From Alistipes sp. (GTDB lineage Bacteria > Bacteroidota > Bacteroidia > Bacteroidales > Rikenellaceae), in the NCBI GenBank assembly GCA_017437045.1, contig JAFSBY010000041.1, positions 80,331-144,330 of the forward strand: a DNA stretch of 64,000 bases, read 5' to 3'. Position numbers and translations under genes: made by a program. The notes under the pieces were generated by a model. That model did no database searches. It was not told the origin of the DNA and saw nothing but the letters and a program-made list of their open reading frames with translations. Position 1 is the stretch's first letter. The number at the start of each line of letters is the position of its first letter. Positions 22,332 to 57,132 of this stretch are shown piece after piece.

Positions 22332-22679
22332 TCATCCGCCGGCCTTCTTGCAACCGTAACCACTGCGGGTGAGGATCTCGATGACGCGGTCGCGGTGGTC
22401 GCCCTGGATGAGGATCTCCCCCTCCTTGGCGGCACCGCCTACGCCGCATCGGGTTTTGAGCAGGCGGGCCAGCTCTTGCAGGTCGGCCTCACGCCCTACA
22501 AACCCCTTGACGAGGGTCACCACCTTGCCGCCCCGTTGCTTGCGGTCTAACCACACGCGCAGTTGTTGTTGTGCGGCGGGAAGGGTCTCGGGCTCCTCCT
22601 CTTCGTCGGTTGTATATTGAAAGTCGGGATTGGTCGAATAGACCATGCCCAAGCGGGCTTTCCAATCGTTGTCTGCCAT
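22332..22679 (-). CDS. SUI1/YciH family translation factor
   Basis: A 115-residue protein. The C-terminal half has the eIF1/SUI1 fold signature RKQRGGKVVTLVKGFVG and KTRCGVGGAAKEGEILIQGDHRDRVIEIL (in parts), with the N-terminal acidic linker typical of bacterial YciH homologues. In bacteria the family is linked to initiation fidelity, but the role is not settled. The start at MADNDW is chosen because upstream sequence holds the -7 box. Divergent from the DUF4435 gene. Confidence 0.88.
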   Translation of the reverse strand: MADNDWKARLGMVYSTNPDFQYTTDEEEEPETLPAAQQQLRVWLDRKQRGGKVVTLVKGFVGREADLQELARLLKTRCGVGGAAKEGEILIQGDHRDRVIEILTRSGYGCKKAGG

Positions 22680-22730
22680 GTTGTTTGTCGTTTTGTGGCG
22701 AAAAGTTGTGTGCTTGTTCACCAATTTGTG

Positions 22731-22738
22731 CAAATGTA
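22731..22738 (-). promoter_or_regulatory. -7 box of the SUI1-family gene
   Basis: TACATTTG on the minus strand, 10 bases from the oppositely oriented TATCTTTG of the DUF4435 gene. Confidence 0.55.
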
Positions 22739-22748
22739 CGAAAAATAT

Positions 22749-22756
22749 TATCTTTG
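22749..22756 (+). promoter_or_regulatory. -7 box of the DUF4435 gene, very short leader
   Basis: TATCTTTG, 8 bases before the ATG at 22765. Upstream in-frame ATG codons precede the box and are therefore unlikely starts. Confidence 0.65.
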
Positions 22757-22764
22757 TACGAACT

Positions 22765-26624: not shown

Positions 26625-27356
26625 ATGATCTACCGATTTGATATGCTCACCTCGACCAACGACGAGGCGCGCGCCGAGCACTACCGCCACGGCGATCTGA
26701 TCGTGGCAGAGCAGCAAAGTGCCGGCCGCGGACAGCGAGGCCATACGTGGCTCAGCCCCGAGGGGGAGAATCTGACCTTCACGTTGGTCACCGAGCCGAC
26801 CTTCCTGGCCGCACGCGACCAATTTCTGCTCTCGGAGGCGATCTCGGTGGCTCTCTGCGACTGCTTTGCCCACTTCGGGATCGTGTCCCGCATCAAGTGG
26901 ACGAACGACATCTACCACGAAGATCGCAAATTGGTCGGGATGCTGATCGAACACTTCTATTCGGGCGACCGATTGCGTCGTACGTTGGTCGGCATTGGCA
27001 TCAATGTCAATCAACAACAATTCGACAGTTCGCTGCCCAATCCGATCTCGATGAGCCTGATCAAGGCGCAGCATTTCGATCGCAAGGAGGTGTTGCACAC
27101 CTTTGAGGAGCATTTTCGGTTGCGTTATGCGCAGTTGGAGGCGGGCGATCAGCATGCCTTGCAAGAGGCCTATCGCAAGCGGATGTATCGCTTGGGTCAG
27201 GAGCAGACCTTCCGGTTGCCCGATGGCGAGCTGTTGGTGGCGACGATTGAGGGGGTAGAGCCGGGGGGTGCTCTGGTGTTGCGCCATGCCGACGGTTCGC
27301 GCCATAGCTACCAATTCAAAGAGGTTGAATTTGTGATTGATAAAACCACGCTATAG
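26625..27356 (+). CDS. birA: Biotin-[acetyl-CoA-carboxylase] ligase
   Basis: Activates biotin with ATP and attaches it to biotin carrier lysines. The 243-residue protein has the short form: no N-terminal helix-turn-helix, so no repressor function. Motifs are STNDEA near the start, QQSAGRGQRGHTWLS (biotinyl-AMP loop) and KWTNDIYHEDRKLVGMLIE, then a C-terminal SH3-like domain. It starts 9 bases after the NUDIX gene. Confidence 0.92.
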   Translation: MIYRFDMLTSTNDEARAEHYRHGDLIVAEQQSAGRGQRGHTWLSPEGENLTFTLVTEPTFLAARDQFLLSEAISVALCDCFAHFGIVSRIKWTNDIYHEDRKLVGMLIEHFYSGDRLRRTLVGIGINVNQQQFDSSLPNPISMSLIKAQHFDRKEVLHTFEEHFRLRYAQLEAGDQHALQEAYRKRMYRLGQEQTFRLPDGELLVATIEGVEPGGALVLRHADGSRHSYQFKEVEFVIDKTTL

Positions 27357-27388
27357 TGGGTGATGAGATAGACCCAAAGAAAGTTGCT

Positions 27389-31996: not shown

Positions 31997-32027
31997 TTTG
32001 TGGTCTAAATAATTAGAGGTATCTTTG
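31997..32027 (+). promoter_or_regulatory. Promoter of the nine-gene SusC/D-LRR-protease operon
   Basis: TTTG ending at 32000, then 19 bases, then TATCTTTG at 32020-32027. This is the only strong promoter seen before the 15.6 kb block. No ECF-sigma/anti-sigma or hybrid two-component gene is adjacent. Confidence 0.75.
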
Positions 32028-32091
32028 CGCCCGGATTTTTTATGCAATGAAATTGGCGCAAGCCAAAAAAGCTATTTTTATACAACAGTCT

Positions 32092-35037
32092 ATGCAACGA
32101 TTTATGAGAAAGTATCTGCTCGCAGTGGTGTGGCTGCTCGCTCCGTTGGCTCTTTGGGCCCAGGGGGAGAAGGTTACTGTGAGTGGTGTGGTAATTTCGG
32201 CCGAGGATAAGCTGCCGCTTATCGGTGTGGCCGTAGTTACGGAGGCGATGACCGGTGTAACCACGTCGATCGATGGTGATTATACGATCGAGGCTGCAGC
32301 CGGTACGACGCTGACCTTCCAGTATGTCGGCTTCCAGACGGCACAATGGGTGGTGCCGACGGGCCAGACGGCTGTGACCTACAACCTCGAGCTGCTGCCC
32401 GAGGCACAGGAGGTCGAGGAGGTGGTCGTGATCGCCTATGGTGTCCGCAAGAAGGGCACGGTGGCCGGATCGGTTTCGACGGTCAAGGCCGAGAAGATCG
32501 AGAATACCCCGACGGCCGCCTTCGACCAGGCTCTGCAGGGTCAGGTGCCGGGTCTGACGGTGCTCTCGAATACGGGTGAGCCGAGTGCATCGGCCACGAT
32601 GACCATTCGTGGTACGAACTCGATCAACTCGGGTACGGCACCGCTCTACATCATGGACGGTGTGCCCATTTCGAGCTCGGATTTCAACACGATTAACCCG
32701 GCCGATATCGAGTCGATCTCGGTCCTGAAGGATGCCTCCTCGACCTCGATCTATGGTGCGCGTGCCGCCAACGGTGTGATCGTGATCACGACCAAGCGTG
32801 GTCGTATGGCCGATCGCCCGAATGTGGAGTATCGCATGCAGATCGGTATTTCGCAGGTGGCCGGTGACAACTGGGACCTGATGAATACGGCCGAGCGCAT
32901 CCAGTATGAGAAGGAGATCGGGCTGACGGCCGGACAGAACTACAATGTCTTGAGCCAGACCGATGTCAATTGGATGGATGTGGTCTTCAATTCGGCCGCC
33001 TTGCTGCAAAGCCACGAGTTGTCGATCTCGGGTGCTGACGAGAAGACGAACTACTACCTCTCGGCCGGTTATTACAGCCAGGAGGGTACGGCGCTCGGAT
33101 CGTTGTTCGATCGCTACTCGATGCGTGCCAATGTGGAGCGTCGCGCTACCGACTGGCTTAAGATCGGTACGCAGACGATGCTCAACTACCAGGAGATTCA
33201 GCAGGCCGACGAGGGTAGTTATACGCTCGTGACGCCGATCTCGGCTGCTCGATTCATGATGCCCTATTGGGATCCCTACAAGGCCGACGGCTCGATCGCC
33301 TCGATCGAGGATGGTTCGTGGAAGGGTACGGGTCAGAACCCATTAGAGTGGCTGGAGAATAACCCGGTGGAGTATAAGAAGTATAAGTTGATCTCGACCC
33401 TCTTTGCCGAGGCAACGCCGATCGAGGGGCTGACGATTCGTTCGCAGTTCAGCCTCGATTATGGCCACACGACCGGTTTCGGTAAGTCCTACCCGAGCTA
33501 CTATCCCAACCAGGGCGATGGCTCGGCCTCGCGCAGTTCGACCGACAGCTACACGCTGACCGTCACGAACACGATCAACTACCGTTTCATGAAGGGGAAC
33601 AAACATTCGTTCAACTTCATGGTCGGTCAGGAGGGTATCGACTACCACTACGAGGCCTTCTCGCTCATGACCAAGGGGCAGAATAACGACCGCCTGACCA
33701 ACATCTCGACCGGTACGCGTGCCACCTCGTGGAGTGATACGACCGACTCGGACTACGGATTCCTCTCCTTCTTCGGTCGCGGTGAGTACAACTACGATAA
33801 CCGCTACTATGTCGAGGCGGCTGTGCGTGCCGATGCTTCGTCGCGTTTCGGTGCTTCGCGCCGCTGGGCCGGCTTCTGGTCGGTGGGTTTCATGTGGAAT
33901 CTGCGCAACGAGCGTTTCATGGAGTCTTCGTCGCGTTGGCTGACCAACATGCAGCTCTCGATCTCGACCGGTACGTCGGGTAACTCGTCGATTCCGAACT
34001 ACGAGCACCTGGCACTCGTCGGTGGCGGTTTGGACTATATCGGCAATGCCGGTATCTCGCTCATGCAGCCCGGTAATGAGGATCTGGGTTGGGAGAAACC
34101 CTGGACTTCGAACTTGGCTTTGAAGTTGGGTTTCTGGAATCGCCTCAATGTCGATCTGGAGCTCTACTACAAGCGTACGTCAGATATGTTGATGGAGGTA
34201 CCGCAGCCCACCTCGGATAAGGGTTATGGCTACTACTGGGACAACGTCGGTGAGATGGTCAATAAGGGCTTCGAGGTCAATGTGATGGGTACGCTCATCC
34301 AGAACGAGAAGTTCCTGTGGACGGTCAATGCCAATGTCTCGTATAACAAGAATGAGATCACGGAGCTCTACAACGGCGTGCAGGAGTATGAGCGTTCGAA
34401 TACGAACACGAAGCTCGTCGTGGGTCACCCGCTCGGTGAGTTCTACATCAACCGCTATGCCGGTGTCAATGCCGCCAATGGTGATGCCTTGTGGTACACG
34501 AAGGAGGGTGAGCTGACCAACGAACTGAAGGATAGCGACAAGGTGCTGGTCGGCAAGAGCTACATCGCCCCCTGGCAGGGTGGTTTCGGTACGACGCTCA
34601 GCTGGCAGGGGCTCTCGCTCTCGGCACAGTTTAGCTGGGTGGCAGACCGCTGGATGCTCAACAACGACCGCTATTTCGACGAGTCGAACGGCCGATTCCA
34701 GTCCTACAACCAGTCGAATCGTCTGTTGAATCGTTGGAAGCAGCCGGGTGATCAGACTGATATCCCGCGTCATGGCGTCTATACGGAGTTTGACAGCCGT
34801 CTGTTGGAGGATGCCTCGTTCCTGCGCCTGAAGAACCTCATGTTGAGCTACTCGGTACCCGAAAAGTGGATCCGCAAGACGCGTGTATTCTCGGGTGCCC
34901 GCATCTATGTGCAGGGTCAGAACCTGCTGACCTTCACGAAGTTCTCGGGATTGGATCCGGAGGGTACGACGAACATCTATGCGGCGCAGTATCCCATGTC
35001 GCGCCAATATACCGTAGGTCTTGATCTTAAATTCTAA
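32092..35037 (+). CDS. SusC/RagA-family TonB-linked outer membrane protein
   Basis: TonB-dependent transporter that forms a lidded channel with SusD. The product from this start is 981 residues: signal peptide (MQRFMRKYLLAVVWLLAPLA), carboxypeptidase-like domain (VSGVVISAEDKLPLIGVAVV), SusC box EVEEVVVIAYGVRKKGTVAG, plug with GTAPLYIMDGVPI and ISVLKDASSTSIYGARAANG, and a barrel ending LDLKF. There is no STN domain, so no FecR-type signalling. Starts at 32047 and 32104 are also possible. susD follows after 9 bases. The absence of glycoside hydrolases and the presence of a protease suggest a peptide substrate. Confidence 0.9.
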   Translation: MQRFMRKYLLAVVWLLAPLALWAQGEKVTVSGVVISAEDKLPLIGVAVVTEAMTGVTTSIDGDYTIEAAAGTTLTFQYVGFQTAQWVVPTGQTAVTYNLELLPEAQEVEEVVVIAYGVRKKGTVAGSVSTVKAEKIENTPTAAFDQALQGQVPGLTVLSNTGEPSASATMTIRGTNSINSGTAPLYIMDGVPISSSDFNTINPADIESISVLKDASSTSIYGARAANGVIVITTKRGRMADRPNVEYRMQIGISQVAGDNWDLMNTAERIQYEKEIGLTAGQNYNVLSQTDVNWMDVVFNSAALLQSHELSISGADEKTNYYLSAGYYSQEGTALGSLFDRYSMRANVERRATDWLKIGTQTMLNYQEIQQADEGSYTLVTPISAARFMMPYWDPYKADGSIASIEDGSWKGTGQNPLEWLENNPVEYKKYKLISTLFAEATPIEGLTIRSQFSLDYGHTTGFGKSYPSYYPNQGDGSASRSSTDSYTLTVTNTINYRFMKGNKHSFNFMVGQEGIDYHYEAFSLMTKGQNNDRLTNISTGTRATSWSDTTDSDYGFLSFFGRGEYNYDNRYYVEAAVRADASSRFGASRRWAGFWSVGFMWNLRNERFMESSSRWLTNMQLSISTGTSGNSSIPNYEHLALVGGGLDYIGNAGISLMQPGNEDLGWEKPWTSNLALKLGFWNRLNVDLELYYKRTSDMLMEVPQPTSDKGYGYYWDNVGEMVNKGFEVNVMGTLIQNEKFLWTVNANVSYNKNEITELYNGVQEYERSNTNTKLVVGHPLGEFYINRYAGVNAANGDALWYTKEGELTNELKDSDKVLVGKSYIAPWQGGFGTTLSWQGLSLSAQFSWVADRWMLNNDRYFDESNGRFQSYNQSNRLLNRWKQPGDQTDIPRHGVYTEFDSRLLEDASFLRLKNLMLSYSVPEKWIRKTRVFSGARIYVQGQNLLTFTKFSGLDPEGTTNIYAAQYPMSRQYTVGLDLKF

Positions 35038-35046
35038 CCAAAGACT

Positions 35047-36588
35047 ATGATGACTCTTTTACGCAATACAAAACTCTATACGATGGTGGTGGCTGTCAGC
35101 TTCAGCCTCACCGCGTGTCTGGATAAGGTGCCCGAGTCGGCAATTCTCGAGGAGGATGCGTTGCACACCTATCAGGAGGCCGAACAGTTCCTGTCGGGTA
35201 TCTATGCCGAGATGATGGGGGGTGCCTTGTGGAGCGGCTACCTGACCCTGGCTCCCGATATTCAGGCCGATTTGGTCTATGCCGTGGATGGTTACTCGAA
35301 CACCTATGGCAACATCTGGCAGTGGCAGATCCGTCCGACCAATGCCGAGATCGGGGCGGTCTATGGTGCGCTCTATTCGGTGATTGCCAAGTGTAACTTC
35401 TTCCTGGAGCGTATCGACGGCGTGATTGCCGATCAGACAATCGATGCCAATATCGAGGCCCTGGACTACTACAAAGGCGAGGTCTATACGATTCGCGCCC
35501 TCTGCTACTCGGAGCTGATCAAGTGCTATTGCAAGGCGTATGACCCTGCTACGGCCCAAAACGAGCTGGGTGTGGTGATCCGCACGAAGTATAGCGAGCC
35601 GGAGGGATCGCATCGTTCATCGCTCTACGACTCCTATCAGTTTGTGCTGTCGGATCTGGCCGAGGCCGAGCGGTTACTCGATACCGAGAATGATGGCTAT
35701 ACGAATCCGTGGATGACCCAGGCGGCAGCTTATGCGCTGCATGCCCGTGTGGCCCTGCACATGCAGGATTGGGAGGAGGCTATCCGCTACTCGTCGAAGG
35801 TGATCGACCACCCGAAGAAGGCCTTCCGCCTGTCGAGTGCCTCGGAGGCCTATACCTCGTCGATGAGCTACTTCGATTATATGTGGAACTACGACCTGGC
35901 TACGGAGATCATCTGGACGATTGGCTTTACGACTACATCGTATGGTGGCGCGCTGGGTCAGCACTTCCTGAACTTCAACAACGATTATACCTATTATTAT
36001 CCGGACTATGTGCCGGCACAGTGGGTGTTGAATCTCTACCAATCGACCGACCTGCGCTATGCGAGCTATTTTACACAGTTGCAGACCGGTTATGACCATG
36101 GTCTGGTTTGGCCGTTGCTGACCAAGTATTATGGCAATCAGGAGTTCATCTCGAGCATGATCTTCCACGTCTCGCAGCCGAAGCCCTTCCGCTTGGCCGA
36201 GCAGTATCTGATCCGTGCCGAGGCCTACTGCCGTCAGGCTACGCCCAACTACTCGAAGGCGTCGGCCGATCTGACGACGCTGCGCCGTGCCCGCTTCATG
36301 GCCGGTGGTGGCAGCATTTCGCTGACGGCTGACAATTATATCCAGCAGATTGCCGACGAGCGTGTCCGCGAGCTCTATATGGAGGGCTTCCGTCTGTGGG
36401 ACCTGAAGCGTTGGGGCAATCTGTATAACAATGGAAAAGGCTTTACCCGCCAGCCGCAGACCAGCTCGCTGGCCGAGGGTAGCTCGCTCACGGTGACGAT
36501 GGAGAATCCGCTCTTCGTATGGCCGATTCCGCAGCATGAGATCGAGTCGCCGGGATCGAACGTAGAGCCGAATGACAGCAACCTTTAG
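35047..36588 (+). CDS. RagB/SusD-family nutrient-binding lipoprotein
   Basis: Surface lipoprotein that closes the SusC channel and binds the oligomer. The 513-residue product has a lipobox Cys24 (LTACLDK), the SusD N-terminal pattern YQEAEQFLSGIYAEMM, TPR-like helices (KGEVYTIRALCYSELIKCYC) and the C-terminal SusD signature IADERVRELYMEGFRLWDLKRWG, ending with FVWPIPQHEIE. Part of the operon started by the preceding susC. Confidence 0.92.
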   Translation: MMTLLRNTKLYTMVVAVSFSLTACLDKVPESAILEEDALHTYQEAEQFLSGIYAEMMGGALWSGYLTLAPDIQADLVYAVDGYSNTYGNIWQWQIRPTNAEIGAVYGALYSVIAKCNFFLERIDGVIADQTIDANIEALDYYKGEVYTIRALCYSELIKCYCKAYDPATAQNELGVVIRTKYSEPEGSHRSSLYDSYQFVLSDLAEAERLLDTENDGYTNPWMTQAAAYALHARVALHMQDWEEAIRYSSKVIDHPKKAFRLSSASEAYTSSMSYFDYMWNYDLATEIIWTIGFTTTSYGGALGQHFLNFNNDYTYYYPDYVPAQWVLNLYQSTDLRYASYFTQLQTGYDHGLVWPLLTKYYGNQEFISSMIFHVSQPKPFRLAEQYLIRAEAYCRQATPNYSKASADLTTLRRARFMAGGGSISLTADNYIQQIADERVRELYMEGFRLWDLKRWGNLYNNGKGFTRQPQTSSLAEGSSLTVTMENPLFVWPIPQHEIESPGSNVEPNDSNL

Positions 36589-36603
36589 TAAATGGATAAA
36601 CGC

Positions 36604-37527
36604 ATGAAGAAGATGATCAAATATATCTTGACGGCTATCAGCGCATTGGCCTTCGGCTTTGTGGCTACCTCGTGTGACGAGGAGTACACGACCTATTCCG
36701 ATGCCGAATATGTGATGTTTGCCGATACGCTCTCGACCCACATGGTGGTGAGCGATGCCGAGTATTTCTCGGTTCCTGTGGCCTCGACGGTTGCTTGTGA
36801 TTACGATCGTACGTTCGGTGTGGAGGTGATCGATCGCGGGAGCAACGCCATCGAGGGGAAACACTACCGTCTCTTGTCGAATACGGTGACCATTCCGGCC
36901 GGCAAGCAGGCTACGGAGGTGAAGATTAAGGGCTTCTATGATCAGATCGAAGCTACCGACTCGCTCGGGTTCGTTCTTCGCCTGGTCATGCCCGAGCAGC
37001 TGGAGTGGGATCTCTATAAGGAGTATAACCAGACGAAGGTGGTGATGTATAAAGCGTGTCCGTTCGACATCAACAACTTTGTCGGACCGTGTATCCTCAC
37101 CTCGTTGCTGTTGTATAGCTATCCGGGTGAGAATATGAGCTATCAGCGACTGATTCGCAGCGAACGTCACCCCTCGGAGGAGAATATGGTGATCCTGCGC
37201 AATGCCTTCTTCGATGGCTACGACGTCACCTTGACCTTCGATCCGGCTGATCCGGCACGCCCGCTGGTGACGATGGACAAGGATCAGGTGCTCTCCGATT
37301 CGGGTTCGATCTTCGGCATGATCCACGGAGACAACAAGGTGCTGGTGACACACAGCCCCTACAACCCCTCTTATTTTAACGCTTGCCAGCGTTTTGTAGA
37401 GTTATGGATCTATGTCTATGTCGAGAATCTGGGCGCCTCGGTTGGTACGGTTGGCAACTTCTATAACATCCTCGAGTGGATCAGCGAGGAGGAGGCCGAT
37501 CGTCTGGAGCGCGAGGAGGGCATGTAA
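36604..37527 (+). CDS. Surface lipoprotein, DUF4843/DUF4984-like
   Basis: A lipoprotein of 307 residues (Cys24, ATSCDEEY). Residues about 35-130 look like a Calx-beta/DUF4843-type beta domain (EYFSVPVASTVACDYDRTFG, IPAGKQATEVKIKGF). Residues about 150-300 (CPFDINNFVGPCILTSLLL, FELWIY-like VELWIYVYVENLGASVG) recall DUF4984, an accessory domain of SusCD loci; I am only moderately sure of that name. The acidic residues after Cys are a surface export signal. No enzyme motif seen. Gene starts 15 bases after susD. Confidence 0.6.
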   Translation: MKKMIKYILTAISALAFGFVATSCDEEYTTYSDAEYVMFADTLSTHMVVSDAEYFSVPVASTVACDYDRTFGVEVIDRGSNAIEGKHYRLLSNTVTIPAGKQATEVKIKGFYDQIEATDSLGFVLRLVMPEQLEWDLYKEYNQTKVVMYKACPFDINNFVGPCILTSLLLYSYPGENMSYQRLIRSERHPSEENMVILRNAFFDGYDVTLTFDPADPARPLVTMDKDQVLSDSGSIFGMIHGDNKVLVTHSPYNPSYFNACQRFVELWIYVYVENLGASVGTVGNFYNILEWISEEEADRLEREEGM

Positions 37528-37551
37528 CGAAAAATGATGAGATTGATGCTT

Positions 37552-40008
37552 ATGAAAACGAATATATTCCGCATGCTGGGTGTGCTGACGTTGTTGAGCG
37601 GGGTGATGATTGCCTGCTCGGACGACGAGACAACGCCCGAGGTGGCTCCCACCTTCCCCGATCCGGTGTCGGCCGAGGTGGCAGCCGGTGATACCTATAC
37701 CTTTACGATTTCGCCTTCGACGGATTGGACGCTGGGCTTGAGTGACAGCTCGGTGAGCTATTTTAGCCTCCTCGATGGCGAGATGGCAGCCTATCGCATG
37801 TATGGCGAAGCCGGCACCCATCAGATCACGGTGCAAGTCTCCGAGTTTGAGGAGTTTGACACAGATCGTCGTTGCGAGGTGTGGCTGACGCAAGGCACAG
37901 GTACGCTGCAAGAGACGCGCACGATCCTTACCCTGACGCGTCGCAGCATGACGCGCGAGTTGAGCCTCTATATGGCACAATATGACGCCGATGCAACTGA
38001 TCCGGATTTTGTGCGTGACGAGGATAGCAACCTGCTCTATGAGGCGGAAGCCGCCTCGGAGATGGACTATATCTACGACAGCTACAACCAGATCTATCTG
38101 CAGCGATTTGCCATCGACGCGAACCTCGCATGGTCGTTTACGGAGCTGCCCGCTTGGTTCGGCACGAACGAGGTGCGAGGTGGCGAGGTGGGTCGCACGG
38201 AGATCTTCTCACGTGTCAATAGCACGGCCCATCCTTTTGAGGATACGACCTTCGATTTGGGATTTATTGATGTGAGCAATGCCAATGCTCCGAAGGTGTT
38301 GGATACCAAAGTGCGTGTCTCGCTGCCGGGCTGTGATGCCTTCTGCGCTGTGGATCGTCTGGCCGCAACGGTCGCCTTTACGGCTGCCGGCGAGTATGAC
38401 AACAACGGAGCGTTGGTCGAGACCGGAGCGGTTGGTACGTTCAATGCCCCGATGGGTGCCCGCCTGCTGGTAGCTGCCAAAGTGGGGGATCGCTACCTGT
38501 TCGATGCCGATCGTGTAGATTGGGTGACACTGACGATGGAGGAGCTGCCGGAGGCCTCGACCGAGTGTGGTATCTGGTCGCGTTCGTTCACGGTGACGGT
38601 GGCGGCCAATAGCGAGGCGGCTCGTTCGGCCGTAGTGATTGCTGTGCCGCAGTCGATTGCCCGCACGATCAGCGATCCTTCGGAGTTGCTGACCGAGGAG
38701 GGTACGGCATTGATTGAGGGGGCTACGTTGGTCTCGACACTGAATCAGGCAAGTGGCCTTCCGGAGGATTTTGAGGCGATCCAGGCGGTAGATCCCGCAA
38801 CCCTGAAGGGTTGGAATATCACCTTTGGCGAGTTGGCAAAGGGTAGTTGGCCCTGGATGAATGATTGGGCTTCGATCCCCTATGCCTATACGTTGAATTA
38901 TACCTCGACAGAGGCTGTCGGTGAGTTCTTCGTGCAGGTGGATTACGCCTCGTACCGCATCTTCGGCTTCGACGGTCCGGATGAGGAGTACACCGATCTG
39001 GAGAGTTGCTGGATTGCCTTAGAGGAGGGTGCGCAGACTGGCTCGAAGCGTGTTACGATGCGTCTCGGCGAGCAGTATACGGCTGCCGATGGTTCGACCA
39101 AGACGTACGAGAATCCGTTGGCCGGCGATGGTGGCGAAAATGAGGCTACGATCGTCTTCTACGACCGTGATGGCGTGGCCCTGACGATGCTCTATTGCTC
39201 GCTGACGAAGGGCTCGACGCCCGGTGGTGGTGAGGTGGATGAGAATGCCGTGTCGTTTGTCGATGCCGAGGCCGCGGCCGCTGCAGGCGTTTACCTCAAG
39301 CCGATGGTCCAGACGGATGCTGATTACAGCCATGAGTTGGCCTATATGGAGGTGCCGCAGTATTACGTGATCTTTACCAAACCGGCCAGCGTGGCACTCA
39401 ATGTTCCGAGTTACATCTACGGTCACTCGTACAACACCTCGTGGATGAATGTCGAGCAGAGCTCCGAGACGGTGGCGACGCTGGTTGCTACGGAGACCTC
39501 GGCCGGTACGAAGAGTGCTGTGACGCTCTACGCCTCGATGGGGTTGGAGGGAGCCACGTCGGCTGCCCAGCTGACCTGTCTCTACGATCCGTCGTATGTT
39601 GATGAGGGTGCAGGTGATGATGAGGAGCCGACCACGCCGCCGTATGATCCGCACGGAGCCATTACGTTTGTCGATATGGCTGCTGCCGAGGCGTTGGGAG
39701 CAACGCTCTACGCGCTGCCGGAAACCGACGACATGTATAGCTTCGACCTGGAGTACGTTGCCGTTCCGCAGTTCCGCCTGACACTCAAGCAGCCGGGCAG
39801 TATCACCTTGCGTGTGCCGGCCTACTACTTCGGTTTCCAATATTCGAGTGGCTGGCTCAGCTTTAGCCCCGATTGGATGGAGAATACGACCGAGGTGACC
39901 ATTACGATGACCTCGACCGGTACGACGGAGCAGCAAACCTCCCTCTCTCTCTATGTCGATATGGAGACGCAAGCAGCACAGATCCATTGTGTGTTGCTCA
40001 ATGAGTAA
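37552..40008 (+). CDS. Large surface lipoprotein with two tandem C-terminal beta domains, unknown function
   Basis: An 818-residue lipoprotein (Cys22, CSDDE acidic surface signal). I do not recognise a named family for the main body, which is beta-rich, with a BACON-like segment at about 40-120 (AGDTYTFTISPSTDWTLGLS). The last 250 residues are two copies of a domain of about 115 residues: first copy begins VSFVDAEAAAAAGVYLKPM and holds MEVPQYYVIFTKPASVALNVP; second copy begins ITFVDMAAAEALGATLYAL and holds VAVPQFRLTLKQPGSITLRVP. They are joined by acidic, Pro/Thr-rich linkers. Binding, not catalysis, is the likely role. Confidence 0.6.
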   Translation: MKTNIFRMLGVLTLLSGVMIACSDDETTPEVAPTFPDPVSAEVAAGDTYTFTISPSTDWTLGLSDSSVSYFSLLDGEMAAYRMYGEAGTHQITVQVSEFEEFDTDRRCEVWLTQGTGTLQETRTILTLTRRSMTRELSLYMAQYDADATDPDFVRDEDSNLLYEAEAASEMDYIYDSYNQIYLQRFAIDANLAWSFTELPAWFGTNEVRGGEVGRTEIFSRVNSTAHPFEDTTFDLGFIDVSNANAPKVLDTKVRVSLPGCDAFCAVDRLAATVAFTAAGEYDNNGALVETGAVGTFNAPMGARLLVAAKVGDRYLFDADRVDWVTLTMEELPEASTECGIWSRSFTVTVAANSEAARSAVVIAVPQSIARTISDPSELLTEEGTALIEGATLVSTLNQASGLPEDFEAIQAVDPATLKGWNITFGELAKGSWPWMNDWASIPYAYTLNYTSTEAVGEFFVQVDYASYRIFGFDGPDEEYTDLESCWIALEEGAQTGSKRVTMRLGEQYTAADGSTKTYENPLAGDGGENEATIVFYDRDGVALTMLYCSLTKGSTPGGGEVDENAVSFVDAEAAAAAGVYLKPMVQTDADYSHELAYMEVPQYYVIFTKPASVALNVPSYIYGHSYNTSWMNVEQSSETVATLVATETSAGTKSAVTLYASMGLEGATSAAQLTCLYDPSYVDEGAGDDEEPTTPPYDPHGAITFVDMAAAEALGATLYALPETDDMYSFDLEYVAVPQFRLTLKQPGSITLRVPAYYFGFQYSSGWLSFSPDWMENTTEVTITMTSTGTTEQQTSLSLYVDMETQAAQIHCVLLNE

Positions 40009-40046
40009 GTGAAGAATAAACGAGTATTACAGAATAAATACGAACG

Positions 40047-42698
40047 ATGAAACTTTACCGATTTTCCGTATATGTGATGCTGACGCTCATGTCGGCGCTC
40101 TTGGCTGTCGGCTGCTCGGATGATGAGCAGATCGACAACCGCGAGTTGGACTACGGATATGTTCAATTCAAATTGTATAAGGAGGCTTCGTATACCCCCG
40201 CTTCGCGTGCCGTGCAACTGCCGTTGGAGTATCTGGCCGATGCCGAGAAGGTTCGCGTGGTGCTCGCCTATGGCGAGACGACGCTGTCGCAGACCCTTTC
40301 GTTGCAAGCCGTTGATGGAGCCAATGCCGAGTATGGCCTGCGCAGCGATAAGCTCAAGCTGCAGGTAGGTAACTACCGTGTGCTCTCCTATACGCTCTAT
40401 GGGGTGGAGGATGAGCCGATCTACAACGGTACGATCGAGGGCGAGAGTGCGTTTGAGGTCGTAGGTGGAGGCCTTTCCGTACACGATTTGACGGTCGAGG
40501 TGGCCGCACGCGGTCAGTTGAGCCTGACGCTCACGAAGGATTTCTCGGATTTCAGCCGAGCTGTCGAGCGTGCTTATACCTTTGATGAGATCGCTACGGC
40601 AACCATCTCGGTGCGCCATAAGGCAACGAATCGCACCTTGACCTTCGAGAAGTTGCCGACCACCTTCTCGATCCATTTCGACGAGGGCGACCAGACGGGC
40701 TTTGGCTATCAGACCTCGTCGATCGTCTGCGATACGTTGCTCTCGGTTCCGGCCGGTGAATATGCCTTGCTCTCGTATACAGTCTTCGATTCCTCGAAGG
40801 TTTTGTTGGAGAACAATACGAATCCCACGAAGACCGAATTTACGGTGGCCGATAACGCCAAGAGTGAGGTGAAGATTCCGGTGAAACTCTATGAGGCAGA
40901 TGAGTATATCAAGGATTACTATGCCCTCTATGAGATTTGGAAGGGGCTCGATGGTGAGCATTGGTATTACGTAGGCGATAATTATCCTGCCGGCACGAAT
41001 TGGGATTTCAACAAGGATGTCGATCTGTGGGGCGCACAGCCCGGCGTGCAGGTTCACTCGAATGGCCGTATTGCGCGTCTCGATTTGAGCAACTTTGCCA
41101 TCCGTGGTCATATGCCCGAGGCGTTGGGTCAGCTGACCGAGTTGGTGGAGCTCTATCTGGGTACGCACAACGATACGAATCTGATGAGCTACGATCCGAC
41201 ACTCGACAGCCGCAAGTCGATTGCAGACCGTAAGGCCAACCGCATGGAGTATCACAAGCAGTATCTGGCGACGCTGCATCCGGGCCCGCAGTTCTCGGAG
41301 CCGTGTGCTCGCGCGCTGAAGGAGCACCAGATCTCGATCCCCGCCACGCGCCTCTATGAGACGATGAGCGAGGGTGAGATCTTCGACATGAAGAGTGGTG
41401 CGCAGCGTTCGTTCCGTCTCTACGATACCAATCCGGGTACGTTGTGCAATGGCCTGAAGAGTCTGCCGAAGTCGATTGGTAAGCTCAAGAAGCTCGAATA
41501 TCTCTATATTGCCCACGGTGAGATAGAGTGTCTGCCTGATGAACTGGCGGAGCTGACCTCGTGTACCGATGTGGAGATCTACAACTGCCCGAAGATGACC
41601 TCCTTCCCGATGGTGCTGACGCAGATGCCGGAGCTCATTTCGCTCAACCTGTCGAACAATACGCAGTGGTCGGCCGAGGAGATCTACAAGGGGCTGGAGG
41701 GGCTGGCAACGGGTCCTTCGCGTGAGAAGGTGCAGATCCTCTATGCGCGTGAGAACAACCTGGAGGCTCTGCCCGAATCGTTTGCCAACATGCAGAAGAT
41801 TGGTCTGTTGGATCTGGCTTACAACAAGATCTCGAAGGTGCACGCGCTGGGTAAGAACTTCTCGCCCGTACAACTCTATCTGGATCACAACCAGATCGAG
41901 CATCTGCCGGCCGATCAAGAGGGTTTCTTCTGCGGCTATGCCGATTCGGAGGCCTTCTCGGTAAGTTTCAATCGGCTGAAGAAGTTCCCCAATATCTTCT
42001 CGGCAAAGGCCAACTCGACGATGAAGTCGGTGGACTTCTCGGGCAATGATATCCGTTCGTTCGAGGGCGAGGAGGATGGCTCTTATCGCGGTATCAAGGT
42101 CGAACAACTTTCGTTGTCGCAAAATCCCAACTTGAAGCGTTATCCGACAGCCTTTGCGAAGACCAATTCGTTGGTATCGTATATCATTCTGCGCGCCTGC
42201 GGTTTGGAGGAGGTCCCCGGAGAGGCATTCACCTATGCCGGTTATACGAATATTGTCAATCTGATGTCGCTCGATCTGTCGTATAACAATCTGACCGATC
42301 TTCCGCGCGATTTCCATGCCGGCAATATGCCCTATCTGTATGGCGTGGAGCTATCGTTCAACTCATTCAGCAAGTTCCCTTACGAACCGCTCGATGCGGC
42401 TGGATTGACCGTCTTTGCCATTCGTTCGCAGCGTGATGCCAATGGTCGTCGCTGCCTGCGCGAGTGGCCTACGGGTATCTATCAGCATGTTGGTCTGCGT
42501 GGTTTGTATCTCGGATCGAACGATTTGCGCGAGATCAACGATACGATCTCGACGCTCTGCTATTACCTCGATATCAGCGATAACCCGAATATCATCTTCG
42601 ATGCTTCGGATATCTGCTATGCTTGGCAGCTGGGTGCTTATATCCTGATCTACGATAAATCGCAGCAGATTTTGAATTGTGATTTGATGCTCGAATAA
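40047..42698 (+). CDS. DUF4458 and leucine-rich-repeat surface lipoprotein
   Basis: An 883-residue lipoprotein (Cys23, CSDDEQID). Residues about 30-290 form beta-rich domains of the DUF4458 type (FKLYKEASYTPASRAVQLPL). From about 335 there are leucine-rich repeats: RIARLDLSNFAIRGHMPEAL, KLEYLYIAHGEIECLPDELA, KIGLLDLAYNKISKVHALG, VNLMSLDLSYNNLTDLPRDF, with LxxLxLxxNxL spacing. No catalytic motif. LRR arcs usually bind proteins, so a protein-ligand receptor at the cell surface is likely. Followed after 21 bases by another LRR lipoprotein gene. Confidence 0.8.
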   Translation: MKLYRFSVYVMLTLMSALLAVGCSDDEQIDNRELDYGYVQFKLYKEASYTPASRAVQLPLEYLADAEKVRVVLAYGETTLSQTLSLQAVDGANAEYGLRSDKLKLQVGNYRVLSYTLYGVEDEPIYNGTIEGESAFEVVGGGLSVHDLTVEVAARGQLSLTLTKDFSDFSRAVERAYTFDEIATATISVRHKATNRTLTFEKLPTTFSIHFDEGDQTGFGYQTSSIVCDTLLSVPAGEYALLSYTVFDSSKVLLENNTNPTKTEFTVADNAKSEVKIPVKLYEADEYIKDYYALYEIWKGLDGEHWYYVGDNYPAGTNWDFNKDVDLWGAQPGVQVHSNGRIARLDLSNFAIRGHMPEALGQLTELVELYLGTHNDTNLMSYDPTLDSRKSIADRKANRMEYHKQYLATLHPGPQFSEPCARALKEHQISIPATRLYETMSEGEIFDMKSGAQRSFRLYDTNPGTLCNGLKSLPKSIGKLKKLEYLYIAHGEIECLPDELAELTSCTDVEIYNCPKMTSFPMVLTQMPELISLNLSNNTQWSAEEIYKGLEGLATGPSREKVQILYARENNLEALPESFANMQKIGLLDLAYNKISKVHALGKNFSPVQLYLDHNQIEHLPADQEGFFCGYADSEAFSVSFNRLKKFPNIFSAKANSTMKSVDFSGNDIRSFEGEEDGSYRGIKVEQLSLSQNPNLKRYPTAFAKTNSLVSYIILRACGLEEVPGEAFTYAGYTNIVNLMSLDLSYNNLTDLPRDFHAGNMPYLYGVELSFNSFSKFPYEPLDAAGLTVFAIRSQRDANGRRCLREWPTGIYQHVGLRGLYLGSNDLREINDTISTLCYYLDISDNPNIIFDASDICYAWQLGAYILIYDKSQQILNCDLMLE

Positions 42699-42719
42699 TC
42701 TAAAGTGCAGATTTTGACT

Positions 42720-44372
42720 ATGAAACAGATGAAATATATTGCAGTAGCACTGCTCCTGGCGGCTATCACAGCCTGCTCGGATGACTCCACAACGCCTGAC
42801 TTTGCCATCGATCGCGATCAGCTCGAGATCGGGGCTGTGGGTGGCTCGGAGCGTGTCTTGGTCAGCTCGGGTGACGAGTGGGTGGCTTCGACCGATCATA
42901 CGTGGATCACGGTTTCTCCGGCCAATGGTCGTGGTTCGACCCCCTGCCAATTCATCATCGACTCGGCTCTTTCGGTTGAGCCGCGTCGCGGTGTGGTGCG
43001 TGTGGAGAACCTGCGTACGCACCAGAAACGGGATATTGTGGTCGAGCAGGCCGGTTTCCCCTATACGATCGAATTGCTGGAGTCCAATTTGGTCGAGGTG
43101 GGTAACTACGACGCCTACGATAAACGCCATTTCGAGGTGCGCGTACGCTCGAACATTGACTTCAACGTAGATATTCCGAAGGAGGCTTCGTGGCTGACCA
43201 ACAAACGTTATCAGCTCAATCTAACCAAAGGTGTACGCCCGCGTGAGGTGACGATTCGCTTTGATTGGAACATCAATACGGCGCCCAACGAACGTCTGGC
43301 CGAGGTGCTCTTTACCCCGAAAGAGACGGTCGAGTTGGCCCGTCAGGATAAGTTGCAGGTGAAGCAGCAGGCGGCCGAGCCGATCGAGGAGGGTACGCGC
43401 GCCGGCGACTCGGTGGCACTGCTCAGCATTTCGCGCTCGCTCAATCTGCTCAGTGGCGGTTGGGATCCGACCACACCGATGAATACCTGGAGCGGTGTAC
43501 AGCTCTGGGAGGAGGGCATGGAGGGCTATCTCCCGGAGAATGAGGGCCGTGTGAAGTATGTTGAGTTTATGCTCTACAACTACAAGGAGGGCCTTCCGTT
43601 CGAGTTCCGCTACCTGACGGCAGCCGAGGAGATCTACCTGTTTGGTAATACGAATACCTTCTTGCTGAACCTGAATCCGGGTGAGTACATCACCGAACTG
43701 ACGCAACTTAAGCGACTGACGATCGGTGCTCATGGTCTGACCAGTCTGCCATCGAACTTTAAGAATCTGAAGAATCTTGAGTCGTTGAATATCTGTGCCA
43801 ACAACTTCCAGACGGTGCCGGATATTCTCACAAAGGAGAACTTCCCGAAACTGCGTACGCTGATTATGAATGCCAACCAGCGTGCGGTGGTCTACGACTT
43901 GAGCAATACGGCTCGTACGGATTTGGGCGGTTTTATCGAAGAGCCGGAGTTCCCGACTGATTTGATCAAGTGGGATTTGGATACGCTGGTGCTCTCGGTG
44001 AACTATCTGCAGGGTACGCTGCCGACCTTCGAGGAGGATGATACGGTGCCTTATTATACGCAGGAGGAGATCGACGCGGTCGATTCGTTGCCGCAGTTCT
44101 TGGTGGATCATAAGATCAAGAAGGTGATGCCTTCGACCAAACGTTTTGCTATCAATCTGAACCGTCTCTCCGGCTCGCTGCCCGATTGGCTGTTGTACCA
44201 CCCGGCACTCGATTGGTGGTATCCCTATAGTCTGGTATTTCCGCAGGAGGGTCGTGCGAAGAATGGCACACAGGCCAAATTTGACAACGAACCGGTTAGC
44301 TTGAGCTACTATTACGATATTTATACCACGAAGGCGCGTCCGACCGATGAGGAGGAGAGCACGGAGGAGTAG
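42720..44372 (+). CDS. BACON-domain and leucine-rich-repeat surface lipoprotein
   Basis: A 550-residue lipoprotein (Cys19, CSDDSTTPDF). Residues about 25-110 match a BACON domain (LEIGAVGGSERVLVSSGDEW, DHTWITVSPANGRG, RDIVVEQAGF) and a second beta domain follows to about 215. Residues 300-480 carry leucine-rich repeats (LKRLTIGAHGLTSLPSNFKN, LESLNICANNFQTVPDIL). BACON domains often bind glycan or mucin. The ATG is preferred to a GTG five codons upstream. It probably works with the preceding LRR protein. Confidence 0.78.
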   Translation: MKQMKYIAVALLLAAITACSDDSTTPDFAIDRDQLEIGAVGGSERVLVSSGDEWVASTDHTWITVSPANGRGSTPCQFIIDSALSVEPRRGVVRVENLRTHQKRDIVVEQAGFPYTIELLESNLVEVGNYDAYDKRHFEVRVRSNIDFNVDIPKEASWLTNKRYQLNLTKGVRPREVTIRFDWNINTAPNERLAEVLFTPKETVELARQDKLQVKQQAAEPIEEGTRAGDSVALLSISRSLNLLSGGWDPTTPMNTWSGVQLWEEGMEGYLPENEGRVKYVEFMLYNYKEGLPFEFRYLTAAEEIYLFGNTNTFLLNLNPGEYITELTQLKRLTIGAHGLTSLPSNFKNLKNLESLNICANNFQTVPDILTKENFPKLRTLIMNANQRAVVYDLSNTARTDLGGFIEEPEFPTDLIKWDLDTLVLSVNYLQGTLPTFEEDDTVPYYTQEEIDAVDSLPQFLVDHKIKKVMPSTKRFAINLNRLSGSLPDWLLYHPALDWWYPYSLVFPQEGRAKNGTQAKFDNEPVSLSYYYDIYTTKARPTDEEESTEE

Positions 44373-44393
44373 GTTTTGAAACGATTGAGGATT

Positions 44394-46418
44394 ATGAAGA
44401 AGACGATTTTATATGGATTGCTGCTGTTGGCGGTGCTCGGTATGGGCAGTTGCGCTAAGCAGGAGATAGTTGATCCGCAGACCGACCCTGTGGTCGATGA
44501 ACCGGCCTATGAGGAGGGAATGCTGCTGGTGAAGTTTACGCCCGAAGTGACCGCCATGCTCGAGGAGGCCGGCGTGACGCGTGCAGCCGTGAGCCGTTCC
44601 GGCTCGCTGGCCCTCGACGAGGTGCTGGCGCTGGTAGGTGGCTATGAGTTGGAGCGTGTCTTCCCGGTGAATAAACGCACCGAGGCCTTGACGCGCGAGC
44701 AGGGACTGCACCAGTGGTTTGTGGTGCGTTTCGGTGAGCAGTTTACGGCCAAAGAGGTGGCTGATCGCCTGTCGGCACTCGGTGAGGTGCAACGCATCAA
44801 CTTCAACCATACGATCAAGCGTGCCTACACGGGGAAGGCAATGCCGCTCAAGCGAGAGGCTCTGGAGGCGTTGATTGCCTCGCGTGGCGTGTCGAACAAC
44901 GATCCGTTGCTGCCCGTGCAGTGGAACCTGATCAACCGTGGCGACCTCTTCCTGCAGGATGGCGTTGTCAAGGGGGTGAAAGATGCCGACGTGCAGTGTG
45001 AGCAGGCCTGGGAGATGAGCCGTGGAGATGAGCAGATCATCGTGGCGGTGCTCGATGAGGGTGTCTGTGTCGATCATCCCGATCTGCGTGCCAATATGTG
45101 GGTCAATACGGATGAGATTGCCGGCTCGAAGGTCGATAACGATGGAAATGGCTATGTGGGTGATATCCACGGATACAATTTTATCAAGGATATGCCGAGC
45201 ATCACGACCAACGACATCAACGATACGGGTCACGGCTCGCACGTGGCCGGTGTGATCGCTGCCGTGAACAACAACGGCGAGGGTATCAGCTCGATTGCTG
45301 GCGGATCGGATACGAAGCCGGGTGTGAAGATCATGTCGTGCCAGCTCTTCTCGGGTGCCATGTCGGGCACCTCGTTGCAGGTGGTGCGTGCTGTGAAATA
45401 TGCTGCCGATAACGGTGCTGTGGTGCTGCAGTGCAGCTGGGGCTTTACGTCGGGTGCGGCCAATAGCTACGATTGGGGTGCCGCAGGCCCGGCTACGCAA
45501 GAGCAGTTTGAGGCCTATGCCCCGCTCGAGAAGGCTGCTTTGGATTACTTCGTGCACTATGCCGGTTCGCCCAATGGCCCGATCGAGGGCGGTATTGCCG
45601 TCTTTGCCGGTGGTAACGAGTCTGCTCCGATGGCCGGTTATCCGGGTGCTGATGAGAAGTATATCTCGGTAGCAGGTACGGCCGCCGATTTTACGGCTGC
45701 TGTCTATACGAACTATGGCCCGGGTACCGATATTTCGGCTCCGGGTGGTGATCAGGACTACTACTACGAGTATGTCGATGCTACGCATAACTATGGTGAG
45801 CTGGGCTGCATCCTCTCTACATTGCCCTATCATGTCAGCGAGACGGGTTATGGCTACATGGAGGGAACGTCGATGGCCTGCCCGCATGTTTCGGGTGTGG
45901 TGGCATTGGCACTTTCGTACCTCTCCGAGCAGCGCTTGCATATCAAGGCCGAGCAACTGCGCGAGTTGGTCGGTCAGACGGCCACGCCGATTGACCAATA
46001 CCAGACGGGTATCAAGAAGTATTGCCGCTATGTGGCCGATCTGGGTCCGATTCGTCCCATGCAGATGAATCTGAGCGATTATAGCGGTGGTATGGGTGCC
46101 GGTCAGATCAATGCTACACAACTCTTGGCAGCCCTGGATGGGGTGAGCGTGGAGGTGCGTTTCCCGAACCTCTATCTGAAAGAGGGTGGTGCCGAGGTGC
46201 TCGATCCGGCCCGTTATTTCAAGCAGGGTGACGGCCTGTCGTACATGGTTTCGATTGTCGATCCGACGATTGCCGGTTGCGATATGTTCCAGGGTCGTTG
46301 CTACTTCAAGGGATACAAGACGGGCACGACGGCTGCAACGGTGACGGCCTCGAACGGCGAGCAACAGTCGTTCTCGATCACGGTGCGTAAGGGTGCCGGC
46401 GGTAACGGCTGGTTGTAA
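44394..46418 (+). CDS. Subtilisin-like (S8) serine protease lipoprotein
   Basis: A 674-residue lipoprotein (Cys20, GMGSCAKQE). Residues 30-150 form an inhibitor-like propeptide (EEGMLLVKFTPEVTAML). The catalytic triad is Asp221 (VAVLDEGVCVDHPDL), His280 (DTGHGSHVAGVIAA) and Ser493 (GTSMACPHVSG), with the oxyanion Asn in FAGGNESAP. The residue after Asp221 is Glu where most subtilases have Ser/Thr. A C-terminal beta domain follows. The position of the only enzyme in the operon makes it the probable depolymerase that feeds SusC/D with peptides. Confidence 0.9.
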   Translation: MKKTILYGLLLLAVLGMGSCAKQEIVDPQTDPVVDEPAYEEGMLLVKFTPEVTAMLEEAGVTRAAVSRSGSLALDEVLALVGGYELERVFPVNKRTEALTREQGLHQWFVVRFGEQFTAKEVADRLSALGEVQRINFNHTIKRAYTGKAMPLKREALEALIASRGVSNNDPLLPVQWNLINRGDLFLQDGVVKGVKDADVQCEQAWEMSRGDEQIIVAVLDEGVCVDHPDLRANMWVNTDEIAGSKVDNDGNGYVGDIHGYNFIKDMPSITTNDINDTGHGSHVAGVIAAVNNNGEGISSIAGGSDTKPGVKIMSCQLFSGAMSGTSLQVVRAVKYAADNGAVVLQCSWGFTSGAANSYDWGAAGPATQEQFEAYAPLEKAALDYFVHYAGSPNGPIEGGIAVFAGGNESAPMAGYPGADEKYISVAGTAADFTAAVYTNYGPGTDISAPGGDQDYYYEYVDATHNYGELGCILSTLPYHVSETGYGYMEGTSMACPHVSGVVALALSYLSEQRLHIKAEQLRELVGQTATPIDQYQTGIKKYCRYVADLGPIRPMQMNLSDYSGGMGAGQINATQLLAALDGVSVEVRFPNLYLKEGGAEVLDPARYFKQGDGLSYMVSIVDPTIAGCDMFQGRCYFKGYKTGTTAATVTASNGEQQSFSITVRKGAGGNGWL

Positions 46419-46439
46419 CCAAAACGGAGGCTGGAGCGG

Positions 46440-47219
46440 ATGTTGCTGCGTGCAGGGTGGTTTGTGGTGTTGGTCGGGTCGATCTCGACGCTGGTCGGAC
46501 AGATCCGTACGATCCCGCAACAGCTGCGCGACAGTGTAGCCCATCCGGCCCTTGTCGAGCAAGCTCCGCTCGTGTTGGAGCATCCGGTCATTGATCTGGG
46601 GACGATCGACGAGGATCAAGGCCCCTGGCGCGGGACGGTTGTAGCGCGCAATGTGGGGCGAGAACCCCTCTTGATTGAGCGCACGACGACCACTTGCGGT
46701 TGTCTGCAAGCCACCTGGGAGCACCGACCGCTTCTGCCCGGCGAACAGATCACCTTGCAGGTGGCCTACCGCCCGCTGGGACATCCGGGAACGGTCCATC
46801 AACGGCTCTTTCTCTATACGAACTGCTCGAAACGGTTGCCTACGGCTGTGCTGACCCTGCGCGGGGTGGTGCGTCCTTCGCAGCAGAGCGGATTGAGATA
46901 CCCCTACGTGCATGGGGCTTTGCAGCTGCGTCGTGAGCGTGTGAACTTTGATCGGCGCGAGGGGATACAACAGACGCGCATTGCTGTCCGCAACGGGGGG
47001 CGGCGCAGCGTGACGATCCAGACCGATACGTTGCTCTCTTCGTCGGGCGTGCGTCTTTGGAGTGAGCCCCGCAGCCTGGCAGCCGGCCAGGAGGGTGATT
47101 TGGTCGTTGAGTATGAGGCCGAACGATGTGGTGATGCCGCACCGCGGCTCTATTGGCAGGGGATACCTCTCCCTCCGCGTGAGCGAAAAATAGAGGTGAC
47201 GATAGCAGAAACAAAGTGA
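46440..47219 (+). CDS. DUF1573 domain protein, exported
   Basis: A 259-residue protein with a hydrophobic N-terminal signal (LLRAGWFVVLVGSISTLVG) and no lipobox. Residues about 45-150 match DUF1573 (LEHPVIDLGTIDEDQGPWRG, LLIERTTTTCGCLQATWE, VAYRPLGHPG), an Ig-like beta fold, and a second similar domain follows at 165-255. Function of the family is unknown. Its place 21 bases after the protease gene suggests a periplasmic or surface accessory role. Confidence 0.8.
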   Translation: MLLRAGWFVVLVGSISTLVGQIRTIPQQLRDSVAHPALVEQAPLVLEHPVIDLGTIDEDQGPWRGTVVARNVGREPLLIERTTTTCGCLQATWEHRPLLPGEQITLQVAYRPLGHPGTVHQRLFLYTNCSKRLPTAVLTLRGVVRPSQQSGLRYPYVHGALQLRRERVNFDRREGIQQTRIAVRNGGRRSVTIQTDTLLSSSGVRLWSEPRSLAAGQEGDLVVEYEAERCGDAAPRLYWQGIPLPPRERKIEVTIAETK

Positions 47220-47245
47220 TAAAAAATACGAAAAAAACAGATACG

Positions 47246-47698
47246 ATGAAGAAGTGGTTCTATTTAACCTGTATGACGATGCTTGTGGCGGTTTGTGGTG
47301 GCTGCTCGAGCGATGATGAGTATGTTGAGCCGCAGCTGGATGTGACGCCCCACAATATCAGTGGTGAGTGGCAGTTGGCCTCTTGGCATCAGGGCCTGAA
47401 GCCGGCTGAGGGTACCTATGTCTATCTCAGCTTCGAGCGCAAGGATTCGCGTTTTACGATCTATCAGAACATTGATAGCTTCCAGGCGCATATCGCTACG
47501 GGACAATTTGCCATTGAGCTGGATCCCGAGTTAGGTGCTGTGATTCGTGGTCAGTATGACTACGATGGTGGCGATTGGGCACATCGCTATCTGGTCAAGA
47601 GCTTGACGGCCAAGGAGATGGTCTGGGTGGCCAAGGATGATGCCACGGATGTCTCGGTCTATGTTCGCACGGAGATTCCGGCGTCGGTGCGTCCGTAG
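47246..47698 (+). CDS. Small lipocalin-like lipoprotein
   Basis: A 150-residue lipoprotein (Cys20, CGGCSSDDEY, acidic surface signal). NISGEWQLASWHQGLKP followed by alternating strands (YVYLSFERKDSRFTIYQ, AVIRGQYDYDGGDWAHRYLV) resembles Bacteroidetes lipocalin-like/DUF5004-type domains. The exact family is uncertain. The ATG at 47246 is taken because it opens the signal peptide. Last gene of the operon; a terminator follows 17 bases later. Confidence 0.65.
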   Translation: MKKWFYLTCMTMLVAVCGGCSSDDEYVEPQLDVTPHNISGEWQLASWHQGLKPAEGTYVYLSFERKDSRFTIYQNIDSFQAHIATGQFAIELDPELGAVIRGQYDYDGGDWAHRYLVKSLTAKEMVWVAKDDATDVSVYVRTEIPASVRP

Positions 47699-57111: not shown

Positions 57112-57132
57112 TCCTAAAACGAGAAAAAGATT

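Follow-up and report, generated by a model that had tools for sequence, protein, structure and literature searches.

A nine-gene SusC/SusD locus on the forward strand of a 64,000-nucleotide stretch of an Alistipes sp. genome (contig JAFSBY010000041.1; the whole stretch is referred to here as the window) was examined, and is considered reasonably likely to encode a surface complex that captures and cuts protein and works together with a TonB-dependent peptide importer of the RagAB type. Two leucine-rich repeat (LRR) lipoproteins, together with an immunoglobulin (Ig)-rod and a DUF4984 lipoprotein, would hold a protein substrate outside the outer membrane, where a lipid-anchored S8 protease would cut it; SusD would then close over the fragments and SusC import them with TonB energy. 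Comparison with related loci indicates that import is best read as an optional step as opposed to a link in an obligate chain. The nine genes are consecutive open reading frames (ORFs) between positions 32047 and 47698, and the features of the locus are as follows:

31997..32027, + strand: Bacteroidetes-type promoter, TTTG-N19-TATCTTTG, the sole match to the pattern inside the locus
32047..35037, + strand: SusC/RagA TonB-linked outer membrane protein (TIGR04056, 786 bits against a cut-off of 368)
35047..36588, + strand: SusD/RagB surface lipoprotein (PF07980, 76.5 bits, cut-off 23.1)
36592..37527, + strand: DUF4984 lipoprotein (PF16372, 150 bits), its N-terminal part DUF4843-like (PF16132, 28.5 bits, below the cut-off of 34.5)
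37534..40008, + strand: gene 4 lipoprotein, a predicted chain of Ig-like beta domains, with no Pfam match
40047..42698, + strand: DUF4458-LRR lipoprotein, ortholog of BT_0210 (PDB 4ECN)
42705..44372, + strand: BACON-LRR lipoprotein (PF13004 and LRR_8, both below cut-off)
44376..46418, + strand: S8 subtilase lipoprotein with a Peptidase_S8_N region and the triad D227/H286/S499 (PF00082, 138 bits; PF16361, 106 bits)
46440..47219, + strand: DUF1573 (HYDIN/VesB-like Ig) protein with a signal peptide, judged by eye, and no lipobox (PF07610, 77.9 bits)
47216..47698, + strand: small lipocalin-like lipoprotein (PF13648, 18.3 bits, below cut-off)

The nine ORFs lie at the position given in an earlier sequence-only reading of this DNA. 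Domain names were assigned with Pfam and NCBIfam, which bear out the gene names proposed there, although the BACON match (23.3 bits versus 25), the LRR models of the BACON-LRR protein and Lipocalin_4 (18.3 versus 22.4) fall below the curated Pfam cut-offs. The true start of SusC, judged by eye, is probably the ATG at 32104, and SusD lies directly 3' of SusC. Spacings between successive genes are 9, 3, 6, 38, 6, 3, 21 and -4 bases, the last being an overlap of the DUF1573 and lipocalin-like genes. As was also claimed, the protease is the only recognised enzyme; Pfam revealed no glycoside hydrolase or other carbohydrate enzyme family among the nine proteins.

Relatives of the locus were sought by an LRR-alignment scan of named genomes, which found 244, and the best 80 of the 244 were kept. 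Gene order was counted in the 55 of these 80 loci with at least 9 kb 5' and at least 6 kb 3' of the LRR gene, the other 25 lacking flank. The window's exact nine-gene order was present in 53 of the 55, the exceptions being L100, in which the last two genes are swapped (as they are in L098, which lies outside the 55), and L102, which has no match to gene 4. SusC and SusD are present in all 55 of these main-clade loci, as is BACON-LRR at its place, and the lipocalin-like gene was matched in 55/55, its position exchanged with DUF1573 in one. L018 and L019, which come from two further families of the Bacteroidales, have all nine genes in this order as well. Since the flanking genes vary among the loci examined, the shared order indicates that the nine genes form a conserved unit, and chance or artefact was rejected as its explanation. 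The unit is patchy across genus and family: an LRR-protein match was obtained in 70 of 101 genus-sample genomes (31 without) and in 136 of 250 family-sample genomes, nine of the 136 being weak (E 1e-10 to 4e-4). Of 295 genomes sampled from the order, 7 had DUF4458 above cut-off, as did 3 of 395 from the phylum; both counts include the window genome, and the domain is therefore uncommon outside the family.

The proposal that one promoter serves the set is in keeping with the pattern TTTG-N17-23-TAnnTTTG having a single match within 31997-47698, the whole window containing 7 against 0.39 expected by chance. Scans of the operon for sigma-70 promoters and terminators gave counts no higher than in shuffled sequences, and internal elements of this kind splitting the operon were rejected for want of any excess. 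Among relatives, 1.2 Mb of loci contain 20 strict Bacteroidetes-type matches; eight of these fall in the opening 1% of the operon, another at 3% and the remaining eleven further in, these last at scattered sites except for one common to L070 and L073. The strict pattern was present 5' of SusC in only 33 of 87 loci, and is hence no universal mark.

The type of transporter was judged by bit scores as opposed to a tree, and on this measure RagA is the best match of the window SusC among solved SusC proteins (605 bits), followed by 8aa4 (395 bits); the SusC ortholog from a protease-less locus gave similar values (RagA 599 versus 8aa4 410 bits). Two control proteins, the SusC beside L059 (RagA 232 versus 8aa4 417 bits) and the second SusC of the window (299 versus 421 bits), were closer to 8aa4, which, with 5t3r, we take to be a glycan importer. 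That second SusC belongs to a SusC/SusD pair at window positions 53875-59268 (1078 and 711 amino acids). The RagA-likeness of SusC makes a peptide cargo likely, and protein is the probable substrate of this kind of SusCD locus, in so far as sequence similarity is a guide. Most studied SusCD systems import glycans, and an improbable alternative is that the locus takes up polysaccharide or the glycan of glycoproteins, with the carbohydrate enzymes encoded elsewhere. Consistent with this, SusD matches 3kez, a putative sugar-binding protein (66.6 bits), as well as it matches RagB (65.5 bits); the window genome has 13 SusD matches above cut-off; and glycosidase families flank some loci. The flank scan covered 78 of 142 listed ORFs, chosen for length and spread and some of them antisense, and the 25 of 93 families that were listed included GH2_C (3 members), NAGidase (2), GH20b (2) and Bgal_small_N (2). 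No family among those listed had more than 6 members in these 78 ORFs and no glycosidase neighbour recurs, so that, within this scope, the orthologous loci do not as a rule adjoin glycoside hydrolases. Set against glycan uptake, moreover, are the lack of any carbohydrate enzyme family among the nine proteins of the conserved order, the RagA-like SusC and the fact that the sole recognised enzyme is a protease whose triad does not vary.

Indeed, D227, H286 and S499 were invariant in 97 of 97 copies when counted by alignment, including those of eight SusCD-less loci described below; six of 102 S8 entries, shorter than 600 amino acids owing to contig ends or misread starts, were dropped. The enzyme is the sole S8 match in the window genome (2.2 Mb, 93% complete). 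The ratio of non-synonymous to synonymous substitution rates (dN/dS) of S8 was 0.07 to 0.13 in four pairs from SusCD-less loci and 0.10 to 0.13 in four pairs from loci with SusCD, rough values given that dS often exceeds 1, and these point to continuing purifying selection on the protease in the SusCD-less loci also.

With regard to the putative binding proteins, the DUF4458-LRR profile matches BT_0210 (4ECN) with 970 bits over profile positions 29-876, and the model of the window LRR protein matches 4ECN with a Foldseek E value of 8.9e-63, at an LRR identity of 34 to 38%. Among the structures similar to the predicted LRR arc are several LRR proteins that bind protein or peptide, a likeness which in a model reflects a shared fold and is no proof of ligand. 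A conserved concave LRR surface was considered as the mark of a single ligand and rejected as not significant, 258 of 2000 random draws being as low. The predicted structure of gene 4, of high per-residue confidence (mean pLDDT 89.6, pTM 0.57), is a chain of Ig-like beta domains, and its structural matches are ordinary Ig-like sandwiches only, with low TM-scores, none of which provides a functional hint; a sister-clade copy matches DUF5003 (PF16394) with 158 bits, and BACON weakly. Gene 4 is the least conserved of the nine, with a median identity to the window of 27% (54 loci) compared with 34% for DUF1573 and 74% for SusC (55 loci), a divergence that would fit a surface arm touching variable partners. 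For the DUF4984 protein, phmmer found no solved relative in the PDB up to an E value of 0.1.

An acid-rich stretch after the lipobox cysteine is a surface-export signal in Bacteroidetes, and six of the proteins had been said to carry a lipobox followed by acidic residues. Inspection by eye found a lipobox in seven of the nine (all except SusC and DUF1573), of which five (DUF4984, gene 4, both LRR proteins and the lipocalin-like protein) clearly carry the signal, two or more of the five residues that follow the cysteine being acidic; SusD and S8, with one each, are weak cases. In relatives, the signal was present in about half or fewer of the lipobox-bearing copies (57/97 for DUF4458-LRR, 46/104 for BACON-LRR and 20/87 for SusD), counts that rest on start calling which misread some genes.

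A departure from an obligate chain was found in a sister clade, in which the LRR protein is approximately 38 to 44% identical to that of the window, and from which 23 loci with enough flank were picked out of about 36 genomes listed. SusC and SusD are present in 15 of these and absent from eight (L104, L105, L108, L126, L128, L130, L131 and L136), as judged on at least 6.9 kb 5' of the DUF4984 gene in each, while the other seven genes are all kept, in order. This loss of SusCD with retention of the rest is a new observation, and one that is repeated within the clade: SusCD presence mapped on the S8 tree requires three changes, a number that the starred branches also enforce, and one of the three could be a regain. 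A tenth gene 3' of the lipocalin-like gene was matched in 23/23 sister-clade loci and in L018 (L018:1742-3658); the copy at L106:17110-19524 encodes 804 amino acids and has no Pfam match.

These loci lend weight to a different explanation, namely a stand-alone receptor-protease of the cell surface, whose task would be to process or remove proteins there, whether the cell's own, a competitor's or the host's, with SusCD as an added partner; we consider this rather unlikely as an account of the locus, but several observations favour it beyond the repeated absence of SusCD and the persistence of purifying selection on S8. A search for a close SusC elsewhere in the eight genomes with a sister-clade query gave no match at E 1e-90 in six and matches at 31 to 32% identity in two, and the window SusC, used against three of the eight, gave a best match of 36%; as the completeness of these genomes ranges from 78 to 98%, SusC may have gone unassembled in some of them. 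In L104, L130 and L131, 217 to 311 bases separate the DUF4984 gene from a divergent hdr-like gene (named by eye), and in seven intact loci this same gene is 258 to 315 bases away from SusC. It has the other orientation in L105 and was not found in the stretches of L108, L126, L128 and L136, so that the argument for deletion at the same site covers three of the eight. The -7 element TAnnTTTG occurs within 250 bases 5' of the DUF4984 gene in 8/8 SusCD-less loci, compared with 0/92 intact loci, in which the compared 250 bases are SusD coding DNA, and 12.6% of shuffles. In L104, L130 and L131 the element is TATATTTG, at -44 to -47 from the DUF4984 gene, and TATATTTG is likewise found at -40 to -47 relative to SusC in the four intact loci compared; SusCD thus seems to have been deleted in a way that kept the rest of the operon under the original promoter. 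At L108:87-7009, 5' of the SusCD-less locus, are ORFs that look phage-like and one that looks recombinase-like (by eye), and the loss of SusCD may here accompany an insertion. The stand-alone explanation is weakened, in addition to the incomplete genomes and the limit of the same-site argument to three loci, by the retention of SusC and SusD in all 55 main-clade loci with enough flank, and by the possibility that protein fragments enter by other transporters.

The protease, too, is not constant. Four loci of another type (L020, L021, L022 and L129) have SusCD, the LRR pair and a further LRR lipoprotein, with no S8 match at its place within the locus; L129 has, in addition, a DUF1573 match on the opposite strand. 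Genome G459 contains two LRR-protein copies above the weak range, of which the L129 copy is 37% identical and lies in the protease-less locus with the third LRR lipoprotein. The near-constant part comprises the DUF4984, gene 4, DUF4458-LRR and BACON-LRR genes, with the exceptions that BLAST gave no match to gene 4 in L020 to L022 or L102, a BACON protein occupying its place in L021, and that neither gene 3 nor gene 4 was matched in L059, a locus outside the 55. In the latter, unrelated ORFs stand in place of genes 1 to 4 (L059:1-4920), with no match in the 4.9 kb 5' of the LRR gene, and the LRR, BACON-LRR, S8, DUF1573 and lipocalin-like genes are matched. Since SusCD or the protease is absent from some relatives in which the core is kept, the core and protease are probably useful without an importer of their own, and perhaps feed other transporters. 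Tentatively, the heart of the locus might be a modular surface receptor (two LRR, Ig-rod and DUF4984 proteins) to which a protease, an importer or both are attached, and which would act on specific outside proteins even where the importer is missing.

The capture, cutting and import scheme, as originally put forward, is therefore sustained with respect to the gene set, the protease triad, the RagA-like SusC and the LRR proteins, but not as an obligate chain. A number of observations weigh against it. Import through a dedicated pair is not required in the eight of 23 sister-clade loci without SusCD, and four loci of another type lack S8 at its expected place. The similarity of SusC to RagA may follow descent as opposed to cargo, and SusD matches a putative sugar-binding chain as well as it matches RagB. 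The concave face of the LRR arc shows no significant excess of conservation over the remaining positions, and the acid-rich export signal was not seen in part of the relatives' copies. Finally, according to one report, cleavage of EspB persisted on mutation of BT_0212, the B. thetaiotaomicron gene in the S8 position (PMC6282197).

A further alternative, that the lipoproteins strip a carrier protein of metal, haem or vitamin and a TonB-dependent channel takes the cargo, appears highly improbable. Two papers (PMC10404256, PMC13142918) describe Bacteroides surface lipoproteins together with TonB-dependent transporters of vitamin B12 and iron, and the B. thetaiotaomicron counterpart genes appear in a table from an iron-depletion study (PMC10434189), but the P values given there for the changes run from 0.084 to 0.57, and no metal- or haem-binding family was seen in the Pfam and NCBIfam matches of the locus proteins.

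A host protein had been suggested as the possible target, and this was not borne out. The records of the best LRR matches (Alistipes, Rikenellaceae) give water deer, buffalo and other herbivores as host animals, 56 of the 80 record titles name a ruminant or horse, and the hindgut offers dietary, microbial and host protein alike. SusCD loci in the literature are mostly glycan-related, whereas the present locus has no recognised carbohydrate enzyme, keeps one order across Rikenellaceae and is present in other Bacteroidales. Were the modular receptor reading true, the locus would be an outer-surface receptor-protease system and not the usual nutrient locus. Relatives that have repeatedly lost SusCD and retained the lipoproteins and protease offer natural experiments on the role of each part. 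Elsewhere in the window, a DUF4435 protein is encoded at 22645-23802, a 65% identical copy of which (L102:3066-4106) lies directly 5' of SusC in L102, and positions 27356-29800 encode an 814-amino acid protein that Pfam does not match at E 0.001, whose N-terminus recalls, by eye only, conflict-system proteins.

No study of this locus, functional or other, was found in the open-licence literature among the matches listed, and comparison was made with four known systems. The B. thetaiotaomicron BT_2261-2264 system consists of SusCD and two extra lipoproteins and was reportedly obtained with bound peptide; the window SusC has low similarity to its SusC (5fq6, 115 bits), and the window DUF4984 lipoprotein, as noted, is without a PDB match. 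The P. gingivalis rag locus comprises ragA and ragB only, working with separate gingipains, and RagAB is called an oligopeptide transporter in the title of one study. The window SusC and SusD resemble RagA and RagB at the scores given above; unlike the rag arrangement, protease and binding lipoproteins are encoded here in the same operon. RagAB is described as implicated in protein uptake (PMC11817032). The window locus is like the SusCD utilisomes in adding further surface lipoproteins to SusCD. Utilisomes contain glycan-binding proteins and glycoside hydrolases, in place of which the window locus has LRR proteins and a protease. SusCD with additional surface lipoproteins is the arrangement given for utilisomes in PMC7618045.

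The fourth system is the BT_0207 to BT_0213 region of B. thetaiotaomicron, which includes BT_0210, the solved ortholog of the DUF4458-LRR protein. The LRR identity to the window is 34 to 38%. The PMC10434189 table places SusD and DUF4984 at BT0207-08 and BACON, S8 and DUF1573 at BT0211-13, such that five gene names, as annotated and not as DNA, fit the window order; from that order, SusC would be guessed to lie at BT_0206, gene 4 at BT_0209 and the lipocalin-like gene at BT_0214. With a counterpart in this tractable species, and one of its proteins solved, protein feeding or processing at the surface becomes directly testable.

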